Positions 1 to 11,745 of a stretch of DNA of 20,263 bases are shown in pieces (position 1 is the stretch's first letter; every line of letters begins with the position of its first letter). The position numbers and the translations under genes were made by a program. A model generated the notes under the pieces. The model searched no databases. It saw only the letters and a list, made by a program, of their open reading frames with translations, and was not told the origin of the DNA. Source of the stretch: a virus; the IMG/VR virus record IMGVR_UViG_3300030331_000230, positions 1 to 20,263 of that record; one strand, 5' to 3'.

Positions 1-387
1 TTGTATACACTCCCAATACTCTCCGGCTTCGGGGCAAAGAATGCCAGTGTCTTGATTCCAATAGTCAATGCACTCTTGGCAGTTTTCTAGCCATGGGTAC
101 AGATGGTCTGGCCTGTGGTTTTTAAATACATCACCTTCAATCATCCACTGAAACGATCTAGCTGGTGACTCATTACCACGAGTACAACCAATCATATACG
201 GACGGCGTGGATCTCCATTAGGATAACTAAAGTCAGGATCAAAACCTGTTTGAATATAAACATCAAAGGTTCTGCCAAACGGAGTTAACCTACCAAGATC
301 ATCAATCCACATAGCAACTGAATCAGGATCAGTTGGAGGCCCACTACCATTAATTAATAAACAAGCCCCCAATAAACTATTCAGCAT
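1..387 (-). CDS. Partial hypothetical protein, possibly exported or lipoprotein
   Basis: The gene enters the window at its 5' end and runs off at base 1, so about 129 N-terminal residues are visible. I chose ATG 387 over in-frame ATG 393 because the AGGAG ribosome-binding site sits 6 nt before 387 and directly abuts 393. The product begins MLNSLLGACLLING, a short hydrophobic stretch with a lipobox-like L-G-A-C at residues 6-9. No basic residue precedes it, so the signal is weak. The visible part is rich in Cys, Trp, Pro and Asp and has CxxC-like spacing (ENCQEC). This fits an exported protein, but I do not recognise the family. It overlaps the end of the upstream basic protein gene by 7 nt. 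Confidence 0.7.
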   Translation of the reverse strand, partial: MLNSLLGACLLINGSGPPTDPDSVAMWIDDLGRLTPFGRTFDVYIQTGFDPDFSYPNGDPRRPYMIGCTRGNESPARSFQWMIEGDVFKNHRPDHLYPWLENCQECIDYWNQDTGILCPEAGEYWECIQ

Positions 388-677
388 CTCCATCTCCTTC
401 TTGCTGCACATATTCTTTTCTTTGGTGTTTTTTTACAATTAACACCATGCATTTTCATTTGACCAGCAGACCTAGCGCAGTAACTCTTACGTCGCTTAGC
501 TCTTTTACCTGTAGGTTTAGCTTCAGTCACAGCAGTTTTAAGTTTTGATCCGGGGTTTTGTCTACGGTATTTTGCCACGCCTTTAGCGGTCATTCCAGCA
601 CCCTTACTTGTAGGTCTTTTATCACCACTTTTAACTGACATACCTTTCATACTACCTTTACGTTTCTTTTTTGCCAT
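381..677 (-). CDS. Small Lys/Arg-rich protein with C-terminal Cys motif
   Basis: The product is 98 residues, very basic throughout, and begins MAKKKRKGS. Its central part (GMTAKGVAKYRRQNPGSKL) and the following TGKRAKRRKSYCARSAG segment resemble a small-protein family common in marine phages and cyanophages. It ends in a basic block finishing WRC. Cysteines in the second half (YCARSAG, VNCKK, RICAA, WRC) could bind metal, which is inference. The ATG is preceded by an AGGGGG-type ribosome-binding site. It is the last of a run of basic mini-proteins. A role in DNA compaction or packaging is plausible from charge and late-region position, but no function is established by the sequence. Confidence 0.85.
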   Translation of the reverse strand: MAKKKRKGSMKGMSVKSGDKRPTSKGAGMTAKGVAKYRRQNPGSKLKTAVTEAKPTGKRAKRRKSYCARSAGQMKMHGVNCKKTPKKRICAARRRWRC

Positions 678-689
678 GACTAATCCCCC

Positions 690-881
690 TTACAGTTTCT
701 GACCTTGCATATTATACCGTGCTTTTGATTTATGTTCCATTATTTTTTTACGAATAGCAGGAGCAACTGGACATTTTTCACACTCTTCGCCCATAATAAC
801 ATCTCCACCTGCTTTAATTTCAACATTAATACATTTGCCAGAACAACAACCAGCTAATAATAACAGTGCAATATACTTCAT
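690..881 (-). CDS. Small lipoprotein
   Basis: The product is 63 residues starting MKYIALLLLAGCCSGKC. A Lys at position 2, a run of Ile/Ala/Leu and a clear lipobox L9-A10-G11-C12 predict signal peptidase II processing and lipidation at Cys12. The mature part is about 52 residues, with a CEKCP pair and a basic C-terminal half. Its ATG overlaps the stop of the 44-residue basic gene as ATGA, indicating translational coupling. A small late-region lipoprotein could be an Rz1-like outer-membrane spanin, but no Pro-rich Rz1 signature or adjacent Rz gene is visible, so that is only one option. Confidence 0.85.
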   Translation of the reverse strand: MKYIALLLLAGCCSGKCINVEIKAGGDVIMGEECEKCPVAPAIRKKIMEHKSKARYNMQGQKL

Positions 882-1012
882 TTCTTGCCTTTCTTTGCTT
901 TAGCCTTCTTAATCTTTGCTTGCAAGAAAGGAGGCAACGTCTTTTGTGCTGCTGTTAACTTCTTGCCATTACCATTTTTCTTCATAGTTTTTTTCTTACC
1001 GTTTTTTCTCAT
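878..1012 (-). CDS. 44-residue Lys-rich mini-protein
   Basis: This short reading frame encodes 44 residues beginning MRKNGKKKTMKKNGNGKK. A LTAAQKTLPPFLQAKIKKAK segment follows, and the protein ends in a Lys-rich tail. The LTAAQK-LPPFLQ core resembles a small-protein family seen in T4-like cyanophages and marine podoviruses. The gene is joined to both neighbours by ATGA overlaps (start 1012 with the upstream stop; stop 878-880 with the lipoprotein start). This supports translation despite its size. More than a third of its residues are Lys. Function unknown; nucleic acid binding is inferred from charge. Confidence 0.75.
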   Translation of the reverse strand: MRKNGKKKTMKKNGNGKKLTAAQKTLPPFLQAKIKKAKAKKGKK

Positions 1013-1341
1013 TTCTTTTTCCTCATGCGTTGGGTTTTACGTTTACTTGCTTCTTTCTTTTTAACGATATAAGAATGAGCAGCTGTTAGACTTCGCTTCT
1101 TAGCAGGATCTTTAGTCCTACCTTTAGCAACTCTTGAACGTTGTTCAATAAGATTAATAATTTGAGACTGTCTCTTGTGTGACTTAGATTTAAAACTAGC
1201 TTGGCTTAGTGTTTTTCTAATATCTCCTACGCTACTGAATTTAACTGGCACAGTATCTTTAGGATTCTCATCAGTATATAATCTACGACCTGATTTTTTA
1301 GGCTTCTTGCCAGTACCTTTAGCTGGATCTCTACGTTTCAT
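1009..1341 (-). CDS. 110-residue Lys/Arg-rich phage protein
   Basis: The product begins MKRRDPAKGTGKKPKKSGRR, followed by LYTDENPKDTVPVKF. Its middle (SQASFKSKSHKRQSQIINL) matches my memory of a protein conserved in cyanophages and pelagiphage-like viruses. It is strongly basic, ends in RKKK and has no Cys. The central amphipathic region from about 45 to 70 and the C-terminal region are probably helical. Its ATG overlaps the upstream stop and its stop overlaps the downstream ATG, both as ATGA, placing it in a coupled operon of basic proteins behind the portal gene. The function is unknown; a virion-packaged or DNA-binding role is inference. Confidence 0.85.
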   Translation of the reverse strand: MKRRDPAKGTGKKPKKSGRRLYTDENPKDTVPVKFSSVGDIRKTLSQASFKSKSHKRQSQIINLIEQRSRVAKGRTKDPAKKRSLTAAHSYIVKKKEASKRKTQRMRKKK

Positions 1342-1583
1342 TTTCTTGTCTTCTTCTTTTTAGTTTTCTTTTTCCAAGAAATACGAGCAGGTCCAGTCTT
1401 ACGTTTGGCAGCTGAAGTACACTGAGACTTAGTGGGGCGACAGGCGGGATAGGGACGGTTCTTATCTTTCTTCCCACTTCTGCCACAAGGTTTGCCGGTC
1501 TTGCAGTCGATCCAACCTTTACCTTTATTCTGGGAGAACCACTTGCGTAAACCACCAGATGTAGCAGATTTCTTTTTAGCCAT
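1338..1583 (-). CDS. 81-residue basic Cys-containing protein (GLRKWF family)
   Basis: The product begins MAKKKSATSGGLRKWFSQNK and continues with a W-I-D-C-K-T-G-K-P-C-G-R-S segment, then YPACRPTKSQC. I recognise the pattern GL-KWF ... W-D---GKPCGR ... YP-C-P as a small-protein family widespread in marine phages, of unknown function. Four Cys (in DCK, PCG, ACR, QCT) could form a zinc site, which is inference. The C-terminus is a Lys-rich tail. It is coupled by ATGA to the downstream gene and starts 3 nt after the stop of the 54-residue gene. Confidence 0.87.
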   Translation of the reverse strand: MAKKKSATSGGLRKWFSQNKGKGWIDCKTGKPCGRSGKKDKNRPYPACRPTKSQCTSAAKRKTGPARISWKKKTKKKKTRK

Positions 1584-1586
1584 TAC

Positions 1587-1751
1587 TTACTTCTTTCTTT
1601 TACTCTTATTGCCGTAGTTAGCAGCACCTACTTTTCGGCACTGTACAATTCTACCAGATGCATACGCAGATGGAAAGACCTTAGCCTTTGCTTTTACTTT
1701 ACGATAGCATGCATCTTTGTTGGTTTTTTTCTTAGCTTTCTTCTTAGCCAT
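1587..1751 (-). CDS. 54-residue basic protein (DACYRKVKA family)
   Basis: This short gene encodes a Lys-rich N-terminus (MAKKKAKKKTNK) followed by DACYRKVKAKAKVFPSAYAS and an IVQCRKVGAANYG motif. The C--KVKA---FPSAYASG--V-CRK-GA-N-G pattern is a recurrent small-protein family in marine phages as I remember it. An AGGAGG ribosome-binding site lies 4 nt before the ATG. The start overlaps the end of the upstream acidic membrane protein gene by 8 nt. The two Cys about 23 residues apart may bind metal or form a disulfide. Function unknown; it belongs to the late basic-protein cassette. Confidence 0.8.
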   Translation of the reverse strand: MAKKKAKKKTNKDACYRKVKAKAKVFPSAYASGRIVQCRKVGAANYGNKSKRKK

Positions 1752-9412: not shown

Positions 9413-11098
9413 TTAGTTAAACGTTACATTGCCTGCATCAGATTCCTGATACTCGACTTCCTCCAGTCTACCGCAGTTGTGATTGTAGTAGAGAGCTGAA
9501 GCTATACCACACTTACCAGTTAGGCGGTTCTTCAGAACACGAACTGTAGTTGTATTCTTGACCACCTCGTCTGGGTCTTGTCGGTTACGCTCCAATGCGA
9601 TAACAGTATTGGGTACAGAAGCAAGAGAGCCTGAGCCTCTAAGATCCTGCATGGTAATACGTTCGCCTTCTTCAAATGCCTTGCCATTCTTGACAAGCTG
9701 AGATACGATATGAATGTGTACACCAGTGCGTGACACAAGTGATCGCAACTCTTTCATAAGACTGTCAATCAACAGTCGTTCGTTATCATTCATAGACCCA
9801 AGCATACCAGTAGCGGCAGCAGTAATGTGGTCAAGAACAATAACCTCAATGCCAAGAGATACAGCCATGAACTCTAGGCGTTGCACAAGATTCTCTACAC
9901 CATTGTTACCAAGGTGGTCATAGATATAGAATCCAGTCTTGCTTAGTTTACCCAAGGCATCATGATACTCTGCATCATTGAATGTGTCAATCTCATTTGT
10001 TGACAGAACATTCTGACCCTCTTCTTCCATCAGCTTATGCATCAATCGTTCTGCACGGATAGATCGAACAGGCTTGTTGATAATCAAAGAGATAATATCT
10101 TCTATAGTTTCTTTGGGTGATTCTTCTAGCATGATAGCACCGCACTTGCGTCCTCGCTTGAGATGATCCCAAATGATTTCACGAATGATAGTAGACTTAC
10201 CTGAGCCAGTACCCGATGTCCAAAGAGTAATCTCTCCTGATCTTTGACCAATCAAGAACTTGTTCATGTTACCCCAAGGATAAGAGAACACACTCTGTTC
10301 TGTATCTTCATTAAGATTAATATTAGAGATGTGCAAGATTTCATCTGGGCTATAGTGCTGTGCATTCCACATAGCAGTCATAACTTCTTTACTCTTACCT
10401 GCAAGCAAGCAATCGTTTGGGTCGTTGAATGGCAGGTTAGCAATCTTGCACTTACCCGGAGGCAGTGTCTCAGCTACTCTCTTTGCTGCCTCTCGACCAG
10501 CTTCATCCTCATCAAACATAAGAATAACTTCATCATACGAGTTAACAAACTCCAAGTTATCTTTGATAGATTTCAAAGCACCTTGTGCTCCCGTTGGTAA
10601 TGAGACTACAGGCCAGCCGCCATTGATTTGGCAGACAGTCATCGCATCGACTTCACCCTCGGTAATGACAAGTTTCTTGCCACCCTTGGATGGCCACAGC
10701 CATTGTCCATACAACGGAAGGTTATGTGCTTTGCCTACCCATTTAAATTGCTTATCAGGACCACGCAACTTCTGAGCAATCAGCTCTCCATCTCTGTAGT
10801 AGTTAGCAATCTCTACATCTTTACCGTTCATGTTTGCAGATTGATAGTCAAACTTCTTAGTAACATCTTCTTTGATGCCACGATGAGAGAGAACTTGGCA
10901 AGCACCCCTGTAAGGTTTCCAATCTTCATCATAAACAGGTTCTGGTTTTATATCATGCATAGGTTTATCTCCTTCCCAATATCCACATGCGAAACAATAC
11001 TTGTGACCATCATCATAGATCGCAAGGTTGTCTCCTTTTGTATCACGACCCTGCCCCCTACACTGGGGACAGGGCTCGTGATGAGTACAAACACTCAT
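9413..11098 (-). CDS. Primase-helicase (T7 gp4-like)
   Basis: The 561-residue product matches T7 gp4 (566). An N-terminal zinc-binding domain with C10/C13 and C35/C38 (CPQC, CFAC) would read the primase recognition site. A TOPRIM core follows with TEGEVDA (E147) and FDEDEAG (D196). The C-terminal RecA-like DnaB-type helicase has Walker A SGTGSGKST (K301), a MLEES motif and a Walker B region IEVIVLDHIT. Further conserved segments are HIHIVSQL, DLRGSGSLASVPNTVIALER and VLKNRLTGKCG. It unwinds DNA and primes Okazaki fragments for the adjacent polymerase. All motifs are intact. It starts 2 nt after the PEP-CTERM gene. Confidence 0.97.
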   Translation of the reverse strand: MSVCTHHEPCPQCRGQGRDTKGDNLAIYDDGHKYCFACGYWEGDKPMHDIKPEPVYDEDWKPYRGACQVLSHRGIKEDVTKKFDYQSANMNGKDVEIANYYRDGELIAQKLRGPDKQFKWVGKAHNLPLYGQWLWPSKGGKKLVITEGEVDAMTVCQINGGWPVVSLPTGAQGALKSIKDNLEFVNSYDEVILMFDEDEAGREAAKRVAETLPPGKCKIANLPFNDPNDCLLAGKSKEVMTAMWNAQHYSPDEILHISNINLNEDTEQSVFSYPWGNMNKFLIGQRSGEITLWTSGTGSGKSTIIREIIWDHLKRGRKCGAIMLEESPKETIEDIISLIINKPVRSIRAERLMHKLMEEEGQNVLSTNEIDTFNDAEYHDALGKLSKTGFYIYDHLGNNGVENLVQRLEFMAVSLGIEVIVLDHITAAATGMLGSMNDNERLLIDSLMKELRSLVSRTGVHIHIVSQLVKNGKAFEEGERITMQDLRGSGSLASVPNTVIALERNRQDPDEVVKNTTTVRVLKNRLTGKCGIASALYYNHNCGRLEEVEYQESDAGNVTFN

Positions 11099-11100
11099 AC

Positions 11101-11544
11101 TTATTCCTTTCTATTTCTCCTACCAAGGCCAGCGAGCCCAAGCATAGCCAGAGCACCGGGGGCAGGAATTAAGTTTCCGTCAAACTGAGTACCAATGGTA
11201 GTGAAGAAGTCATAAGATCCTTCTTCTGCATTAAAGAGAACAGCTTGTTGAAACTCATAGCCATACGCTTCATCAGTAGTGTAGCTGTAGCTAACGGTTT
11301 CACCGGGACTAACTTCTACATTCCAAGTGACAGTATCATCAATAACAAGATCGAAGATAGCAATATCAGATGTTGCATCATTTGAGAATGTATAAACAAA
11401 CAGCTCTGAGTTTGCTTCTTCATCTAAGAAGTATGAAGCAACAAAGCTACCTGTCCACTGAAAATCTTCACCAGCATCACCTACATAGGTTTGCTCAGTA
11501 TAGTCTGGTCCTGCAAGACCAGCTAACAATAATTCTAATAACAT
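11101..11544 (-). CDS. PEP-CTERM-type exosortase substrate-like protein
   Basis: The 147-residue protein has a short hydrophobic N-terminus, LLELLLAGLAG (residues 2-12), without basic residues. A beta-rich Thr/Ser/acidic body of about 110 residues follows. The C-terminus is IPAPGALAMLGLAGLGRRNR (126-145). That tail is the tripartite PEP-CTERM signal: Pro-x-Pro, a Gly/Ala/Leu membrane helix and an Arg cluster, recognised by exosortase (EpsH/XrtA families) in Gram-negative bacteria. The body resembles secreted PEP-CTERM proteins in composition, with no enzyme motif. AGGAG lies 7 nt before the ATG. The gene sits between the tRNA/hairpin block and primase-helicase, a moron-like position. A surface role such as receptor masking or decoy substrate is inference. 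Confidence 0.87.
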   Translation of the reverse strand: MLLELLLAGLAGPDYTEQTYVGDAGEDFQWTGSFVASYFLDEEANSELFVYTFSNDATSDIAIFDLVIDDTVTWNVEVSPGETVSYSYTTDEAYGYEFQQAVLFNAEEGSYDFFTTIGTQFDGNLIPAPGALAMLGLAGLGRRNRKE

Positions 11545-11565
11545 ACGTTATCTCCTAAAATAAAT

Positions 11566-11591
11566 GTGCCACCCTACCGACTGGGTGACAC
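11566..11591 (-). terminator. Hairpin with T-rich tail after tRNA-Arg
   Basis: On the minus strand GTGTCACCC pairs with GGGTGGCAC (9 bp, one G-U pair) around an 8-nt loop, followed by ATTTATTTT. It begins 4 nt after the tRNA-Arg discriminator base and ends before the PEP-CTERM ribosome-binding site. The T-run is interrupted, so it may be a weak intrinsic terminator or a 3'-processing/stabilising stem for the tRNA transcript. Confidence 0.6.
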
Positions 11592-11595
11592 ATAA

Positions 11596-11669
11596 CGCTC
11601 TCGGCAAGACTCGAACTTGCAACCTACTGCTTAGAAGGCAGTTGCTCTATCCAATTGAGCTACGAAAGC
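11596..11669 (-). tRNA. tRNA-Arg (anticodon UCU)
   Basis: A full 74-nt cloverleaf folds. The acceptor GCTTTCG pairs with CGAGAGC (7 bp with one wobble) and the D stem is GCTC/GAGC. The anticodon stem ACTGC/GCAGT encloses loop CTTCTAA, giving anticodon UCU. The variable loop is AGGTT, the T stem GCAAG/CTTGC carries loop TTCGAGT, and the discriminator is G. No CCA is encoded. It reads AGA codons, which are typically rare in GC-rich hosts. Confidence 0.95.
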
Positions 11670-11672
11670 CAA

Positions 11673-11745
11673 TAGCTCCACCGGGACTCGAACCCGGACT
11701 GGATGGATTTTAAGTCCACTGCCTCTGCCATTGGGCTATGGAGCC
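11673..11745 (-). tRNA. tRNA-Leu (anticodon UAA), short variable loop
   Basis: A 73-nt cloverleaf folds. The acceptor GGCTCCA pairs with TGGAGCT (first pair G-U) and the D arm is GCC/GGC. The anticodon stem GTGGA/TCCAT encloses loop CTTAAAA, giving anticodon UAA, which reads UUA. The variable loop is only CCAGT, the T stem is CCGGG/CCCGG with loop TTCGAGT, and the discriminator is A. Bacterial leucine tRNAs normally carry a long variable arm, so this is an atypical class I form. A73 agrees with leucine identity. It lies 3 nt upstream of tRNA-Arg, and CCA is not encoded. Confidence 0.92.

Follow-up and report, generated by a model that had tools for sequence, protein, structure and literature searches.

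The closest described counterpart of the protein reported here is found in the PEP-CTERM/exosortase (EpsH) system. Common to both are a C-terminus made up of a Pro-x-Pro motif, a hydrophobic stretch and an Arg cluster, and a body with little homology beyond this tail; an exosortase is also encoded in the candidate host family. Our protein differs in that PAP stands in place of PEP, the hydrophobic stretch is short, there is no classical signal peptide, and the gene is carried by a phage. The active site of exosortase is predicted to face outward, in the part of PMC1569441 that deals with it. Among viruses, 13 TIGR03118 proteins, which have a putative exosortase-interaction domain, were counted among the proteins of hot-spring viruses derived from horizontal gene transfer, according to the section of PMC11003980 concerned. 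What they share with our case is that viruses encode proteins of cellular origin bearing a putative exosortase tail; they belong, however, to another family and come from another habitat. In the passages of PMC12642866 that mention it, PEP-CTERM concerns Microcystis genes. Among the papers listed from a library of open PMC articles, which does not include preprint servers, none was seen to report such a protein as encoded by a T7-like phage.

A preliminary description of a viral DNA of 20,263 nucleotides (the whole stretch analysed, hereafter 'the window') had proposed that it encodes a PEP-CTERM/exosortase-type surface protein. If this is true, lytic phages would use bacterial C-terminal sorting to alter the surface of the cell being killed. 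The gene would also give a host clue for uncultured large T7-like phages, provide a genetic handle on the planctomycete exosortase, and make it possible to ask directly whether a substrate lacking a classical signal peptide is accepted by exosortase.

A conserved insert next to the primase gene

The gene, for a protein of 147 residues, lies at 11101..11544 on the minus strand. It starts with ATG and is preceded by a Shine-Dalgarno sequence, AGGAGAT (11550..11556, minus). As first described, the open reading frame is there, and its tail combines Pro-x-Pro with a Gly/Ala/Leu stretch and a cluster of Arg residues. The search of related phages that had been suggested found the gene on 19 other viral contigs; it is encoded there at 20 loci, L019 and L020 being parts of a single contig. 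At three loci the protein is identical to that of the window over its full length, and at the remainder identity is 85 to 93% over the best segment. GGAGAT is found 5' of the start in 19 of the 19 loci compared at the start (L019, which is without the gene start, was excluded). For the 21 pairs formed by seven sequences of the gene, dN/dS was 0.05 to 0.19; within the tail, pairs differed by 0 to 1 nonsynonymous versus 0 to 8 synonymous changes. Reading frame, conservation, alignment and selection confirm that the gene is real, conserved and under purifying selection.

Two other explanations were rejected: a non-functional hitchhiker on the ground of purifying selection, and contamination by host DNA on that of the position of the gene inside the phage replication module in many contigs. 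The protein had no match in 50,697 phage records and none among PHROGs, and a first scan of genome contigs gave no relative. Its AlphaFold model had a pLDDT of 35.2, and no structure was obtained.

The T7-like nature of the carrier was borne out by matches to a single-subunit RNA polymerase, a primase/helicase, a DNA polymerase and a head-tail adaptor (phrog_414, phrog_239, phrog_17 and phrog_449), all encoded in the window. A qualification is the size of the longest record with the gene, 67 kb; its structural genes are far from the gene described here, which adjoins replication genes. Phage integrase was found in none of nine viral records. Directly downstream is the primase/helicase gene (9413..11098, minus; phrog_239). 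On the upstream side lie tRNA-Leu (taa; 11673..11745, minus), tRNA-Arg (tct; 11596..11669, minus) and, between tRNA-Arg and the gene, a hairpin with an 11-bp stem followed by TTTATTTT (11564..11593, minus; -18.4 kcal/mol, z -4.1). This hairpin is absent in L044 and L045. The tRNA-Leu call covers only 73 bases and has no long variable arm; bacterial tRNA-Leu usually has one.

The primase start was covered in 33 of the 39 loci found, of which 19 have the gene and 14 do not (the six loci without the primase start were left out of this count). In L042 and L043, at about 80% primase identity, tRNA-Arg runs directly into the primase gene; both tRNAs were called in L042. Because these two loci are natural empty sites, the claim of a discrete insert between the tRNA/hairpin block and the primase-helicase gene is confirmed, and the gene is a dispensable insert. 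On a primase tree of 26 rows, two changes are required to account for its presence and absence, such as a gain and a loss. Four records of 68 to 73 kb, from the group at 55 to 59%, gave no PF07589 or TIGR02595 match. Sequence comparison further indicates that the final codons of the inserted gene contain the likely Shine-Dalgarno sequence of the primase gene, AAAGGAA (11104..11110, minus); it is also present 5' of the primase gene in empty sites. The tail may end in RKE because its last codons hold this signal.

Two observations concern other parts of these phages. At 381-1751 (minus) the window has a row of small Lys/Arg-rich open reading frames together with a lipoprotein-like one (690-881). 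The 67-kb T7-like record (G002; L066, 4312-19731) has an open reading frame of 5139 codons, preceded by one of 1371 codons whose product ends in NFTWEF.

Tail and body of the encoded protein

The C-terminal sorting-type tail (residues 126-147; 11104..11169, minus) reads IPAPGALAMLGLAGLGRRNRKE in the window protein. It conforms to IPAPGALAMLGLAG[LF]GRRNRKE in nine of ten aligned members, and the tenth, L018, has the variant IPSPGAIAMLGVVGLGRRRNRKE. All three parts of the signal are there, but the near-invariant PEP is not: the motif is Pro-Ala-Pro, or Pro-Ser-Pro in L018, and Phycisphaerae tails likewise have Pro-Ala-Pro. A hydrophobic segment, GALAMLGLAGLG, leads into the basic cluster RRNRKE, but at about 12 to 14 residues it is shorter than usual.

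Profile searches, proposed as a check of the original claim, gave scores below the cut-offs, which taken literally speaks against it. The protein scored 14.3 bits on PF07589, and 17.5 in a genome search, for a cut-off of 20.7. On TIGR02595 it reached 13.3 of the 16 bits required in G000, G002 and G003, and G005, which carries the L018 variant, had no TIGR02595 match. The best NCBIfam match was PEP_EDSA_1 (E = 4.1e-4), which matches ten of ten members, while PF07589 weakly matches nine. Phycisphaerae proteins with the same tail served as a yardstick; ten were picked among plus-strand tail matches, seven of them as C-terminal pieces only. They scored 14.8 to 19.5 bits on PF07589, none reaching 20.7, and four of the ten reached the TIGR02595 cut-off of 16, one at exactly 16. 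Since these same-tail proteins mostly miss the cut-offs too, a score below cut-off does not discriminate.

In the PF07589 genome search, the tail was found in all four records with the gene and in none of six others. At E<=10 this profile also matched 13 of 14 control genomes, never above the cut-off, and TIGR02595 at E<=1 matched seven of the 14, two of them above its cut-off. Among 915 open reading frame segments of at least 60 codons, from 14 viral pieces, only two had such a tail, both being the gene under study. Chance matches were rare: one in 18,300 shuffled tails, and one in 200,000 shuffles of the protein's own tail. A PEP-CTERM-type signal is supported in kind, the tail having the PAPG form of Phycisphaerae. 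We do not formally count the protein among the PEP-CTERM proteins, because it lacks the PEP letters, stays below the cut-offs and has no classical signal peptide.

The body (residues 1-125; 11170..11544, minus), which begins MLLELLLAGLAG, is of unusual composition. It is free of Lys, Arg, His and Cys over its 125 residues in the window protein, and the same holds for ten of ten members. For 44 other open reading frames of at least 100 codons in the 67-kb record, the lowest Lys plus Arg content was 5.3%, and one of them has a 125-residue stretch at 0.8%. In 146 Phycisphaerae PEP-CTERM bodies, taken as the 110 residues before the motif at loci picked by phage tail or phage profile, the median was 1.8%, and 79% were at or below 3%. 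For 629 other genes of genome G012, measured whole, the median was 10.5%, and 0.6% were at or below 3%. Body composition thus supports assignment to the PEP-CTERM protein class without recourse to the tail.

As had been pointed out, the N-terminal export signal is short and lacks basic residues. The N-terminus is MLLELLLAG, and no classical signal peptide was seen on inspection, basic residues being absent up to residue 125. A short N-terminus of this kind recurs in a T4-like phage protein (see below) and in a Phycisphaeraceae PEP-CTERM family (L123, L150, L155 and L168; pattern M[FY]ES[ILM]ILA[GS]...IPAPGALALLGLAGLGRRRRNG). This family shares with the phage protein an N-terminus that bears Glu and lacks basic residues, and a nearly identical tail; its members are, however, about 205 residues long, compared to 147, and no body homology was detected. 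One member weakly matches the carbohydrate-binding domain CBM_4_9. GGAG is found 5' of the start in three of the four loci, the three that were compared upstream of it. The joint N-terminal motif, built after seeing the gene, occurred in one of 692 crude G012 genes, the PEP-CTERM one. The likeness was noticed after the fact, and this counts against our best reading. Such an N-terminus may be exported by N-tail translocation, a process that positive charges would impede. A type IV pilin-like N-terminus is conceivable as well.

The protein resembles a PEP-CTERM protein of the Phycisphaerae PAPG form and most likely functions as one. The initial assignment to the PEP-CTERM/exosortase type is partly supported, by the form of the tail, the body composition and the exosortase of the candidate family; its functional claims are not established.

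Candidate host and proposed role

Species genomes were scanned for DNA coding for IPAPGA[LF]A[ILM][LF]G[LF]AG. This gave 101 stretches, several per genome, of which 80 were listed and examined. A Planctomycetota label was found on 75 of these 80, mostly Phycisphaerales or Phycisphaerae. The other five were three stretches of one lake genome, one of Anaerolineales, and one in a genome labelled Chitinophaga, which also turns up in the Phycisphaeraceae-family search. Among the listed stretches, 84 of 85 tail matches were in frame at C-termini, ending 21 to 25 codons on, the odd one being the Anaerolineales stretch. The nearest tails among the listed matches read IPAPGALALLGLAGLGRRRRNG and come from MAGs MED-G178 and NAT18.

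At E<=1e-4, the profile of the full phage protein matched in 73 of 151 Phycisphaeraceae-family genomes, the matches resting mostly on the tail. For the order that includes the Anaerolineales genome it matched in none of 151, a control without known positive for which the Phycisphaeraceae search is the positive counterpart. A profile of the body only found nothing in 301 genomes of the candidate host's order, in a search without positive control, and gave a best E of 0.84 against 5107 planctomycete open reading frame segments. Exosortase, which the original proposal had suggested looking for, gave matches over the cut-off in 98 of 101 Phycisphaeraceae genomes and matched in one of 14 controls. 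The GC content of the phage is about 40 to 41%, compared to 57% in G012, though values as low as 43% occur at planctomycete loci with the tail. Comparison of the tRNAs with about 40% of G012 (13 tRNAs) gave a best identity of 78%, to another isoacceptor, an uninformative result. The primase profile found no close phage relative in 350 genomes of the candidate host's order, and one distant T7-like contig (G382). No direct host link was found; the phage most likely infects Phycisphaerae-type planctomycetes.

A host-type tail on a phage protein suggests that the phage uses the host sorting enzyme to place this protein in the envelope. The gene would be a moron that an uncultured T7-like phage carries among its early/middle (replication) genes, with a product that mimics a host PEP-CTERM protein. 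Its acidic body, free of Lys and Arg, would cross the inner membrane, a possible path being N-tail translocation that dispenses with a classical signal peptide, and the Arg cluster would hold the C-terminus in the cytoplasm. The host exosortase would recognise PAPG on the outward side of this membrane and cut, and the body would remain in the envelope of the infected cell or in its exopolymer. There it would most likely shield or alter the surface, for instance so as to exclude further phages. In our estimate it is about an even bet that the product of this moron imitates an exosortase substrate of planctomycetes and reaches the envelope of infected cells. Weighing against this reading are the scores below the cut-offs, the lack of a classical signal peptide, of a body homologue and of a close phage relative in the genomes searched, the difference in GC content and the poor structural model. 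Superinfection exclusion, taken on its own, is a tentative proposal that we consider rather doubtful.

Surface change or superinfection exclusion is nevertheless the likeliest role, because the conserved body argues against a pure decoy and the gene position against a virion or lysis function. The tail could also be a plain anchor, the protein staying unprocessed and acting in the inner membrane, for example by keeping the DNA of later phages from entering. Sub-threshold sorting scores, the lack of a classical signal peptide and the short hydrophobic ends would fit such a protein, but an anchor has no need of a near letter-for-letter Phycisphaerae tail including Pro-Ala-Pro-Gly, and the body composition fits an exported PEP-CTERM protein; we consider this explanation unlikely. 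Less probable still is a decoy or inhibitor that occupies the host exosortase and halts sorting of host surface or exopolymer-linked proteins. Its tail would be nearly invariant and host-like, as is observed, but the body is conserved like a working domain (dN/dS 0.05 to 0.19), and a decoy would need export too, since the predicted active site of exosortase is outward-facing (PMC1569441, in the part cited above). A true substrate seems likelier than a decoy.

Convergence, in which a phage protein that is cytoplasmic or otherwise unrelated came by its tail with no connection to exosortase, would account for the scores under the cut-offs and for the lack of a cellular body homologue in the 301 genomes of the order. 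We regard it as improbable given the chance rate of one in 18,300 shuffled tails, the body composition, and the same architecture in a T4-like phage. Small size alone would suit a virion or lysis protein, a reading that we hold to be very improbable: in the 67-kb record the gene sits among replication genes, with those for capsid and tail far away, it is absent at the same site in the relatives L042 and L043, and it has no PHROG match. For a virion protein specifically, gene position was the reason for rejection. An exported substrate of the host exosortase remains our preferred reading.

Similar proteins in other viruses

A scan of viral contigs for the tail gave 27 stretches: 18 were the gene described above, eight were other PEP-CTERM-like C-termini, and one was not. 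A T4-like phage PEP-CTERM protein was found on contigs of one metagenome (L251, 8808-9218; L259, 454-861; L278, 3001-3408). In L251 and L259 it has 136 to 137 residues, a similar N-terminus and the tail VPAPGAIALMGIAGI[TS]A[KT]RRRR. For TIGR02595 (cut-off 16), the L251 tail scored 16.7 bits and that of L259 15.6, or 19.6 and 19.1 in the genome search. The T4-like protein has in common with the family of the window a size of about 136 residues, a short Glu-bearing N-terminus and a PAPG tail; the two align end to end, with a body similarity that alone is not significant (1.8 bits). L251 also encodes a T4-type single-strand-binding protein, a tail tube and a baseplate hub. A planctomycete host of this phage is putative, because its single-strand-binding protein is closest to those of Synechococcus phages (57.6%).

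A third group, L260, L267 and L248, is related via a Cys-rich membrane protein. It is conceivable, though we think it doubtful, that several unrelated lineages of planctomycete phages (T7-like, T4-like and the L248/L260/L267 group) place envelope proteins via the host exosortase, the T7-like and T4-like ones by an undescribed export route, free of signal peptides and poor in Lys and Arg, that is shared with a host PEP-CTERM family.

Some further features of these contigs are worth recording. In the window, a 269-residue protein is encoded after the head-tail adaptor gene (1744-2553, minus). It has a coiled-coil start, a membrane stretch and the C-terminus QPEPEMIVVAESKGVWALPLLLFWKPRRRNG, kept in two relatives. 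On visual inspection it is similar to the Cys-rich membrane proteins encoded next to the PEP-CTERM genes of L260 and L267; tblastn gave no link between them. At least one PEP-CTERM-like protein is encoded in each of L260 (6712-11280 and 12473-13558), L267 (5528-6933) and L248, and some of these have classical signal peptides. L260 also encodes a prepilin-type protein over the TIGR02532 cut-off. Beside the PEP-CTERM gene of L248, in contig 1 of G394 (38977-39045), TIGR02595 matched at 19.8 bits in a reading frame that is interrupted by a single TAA.
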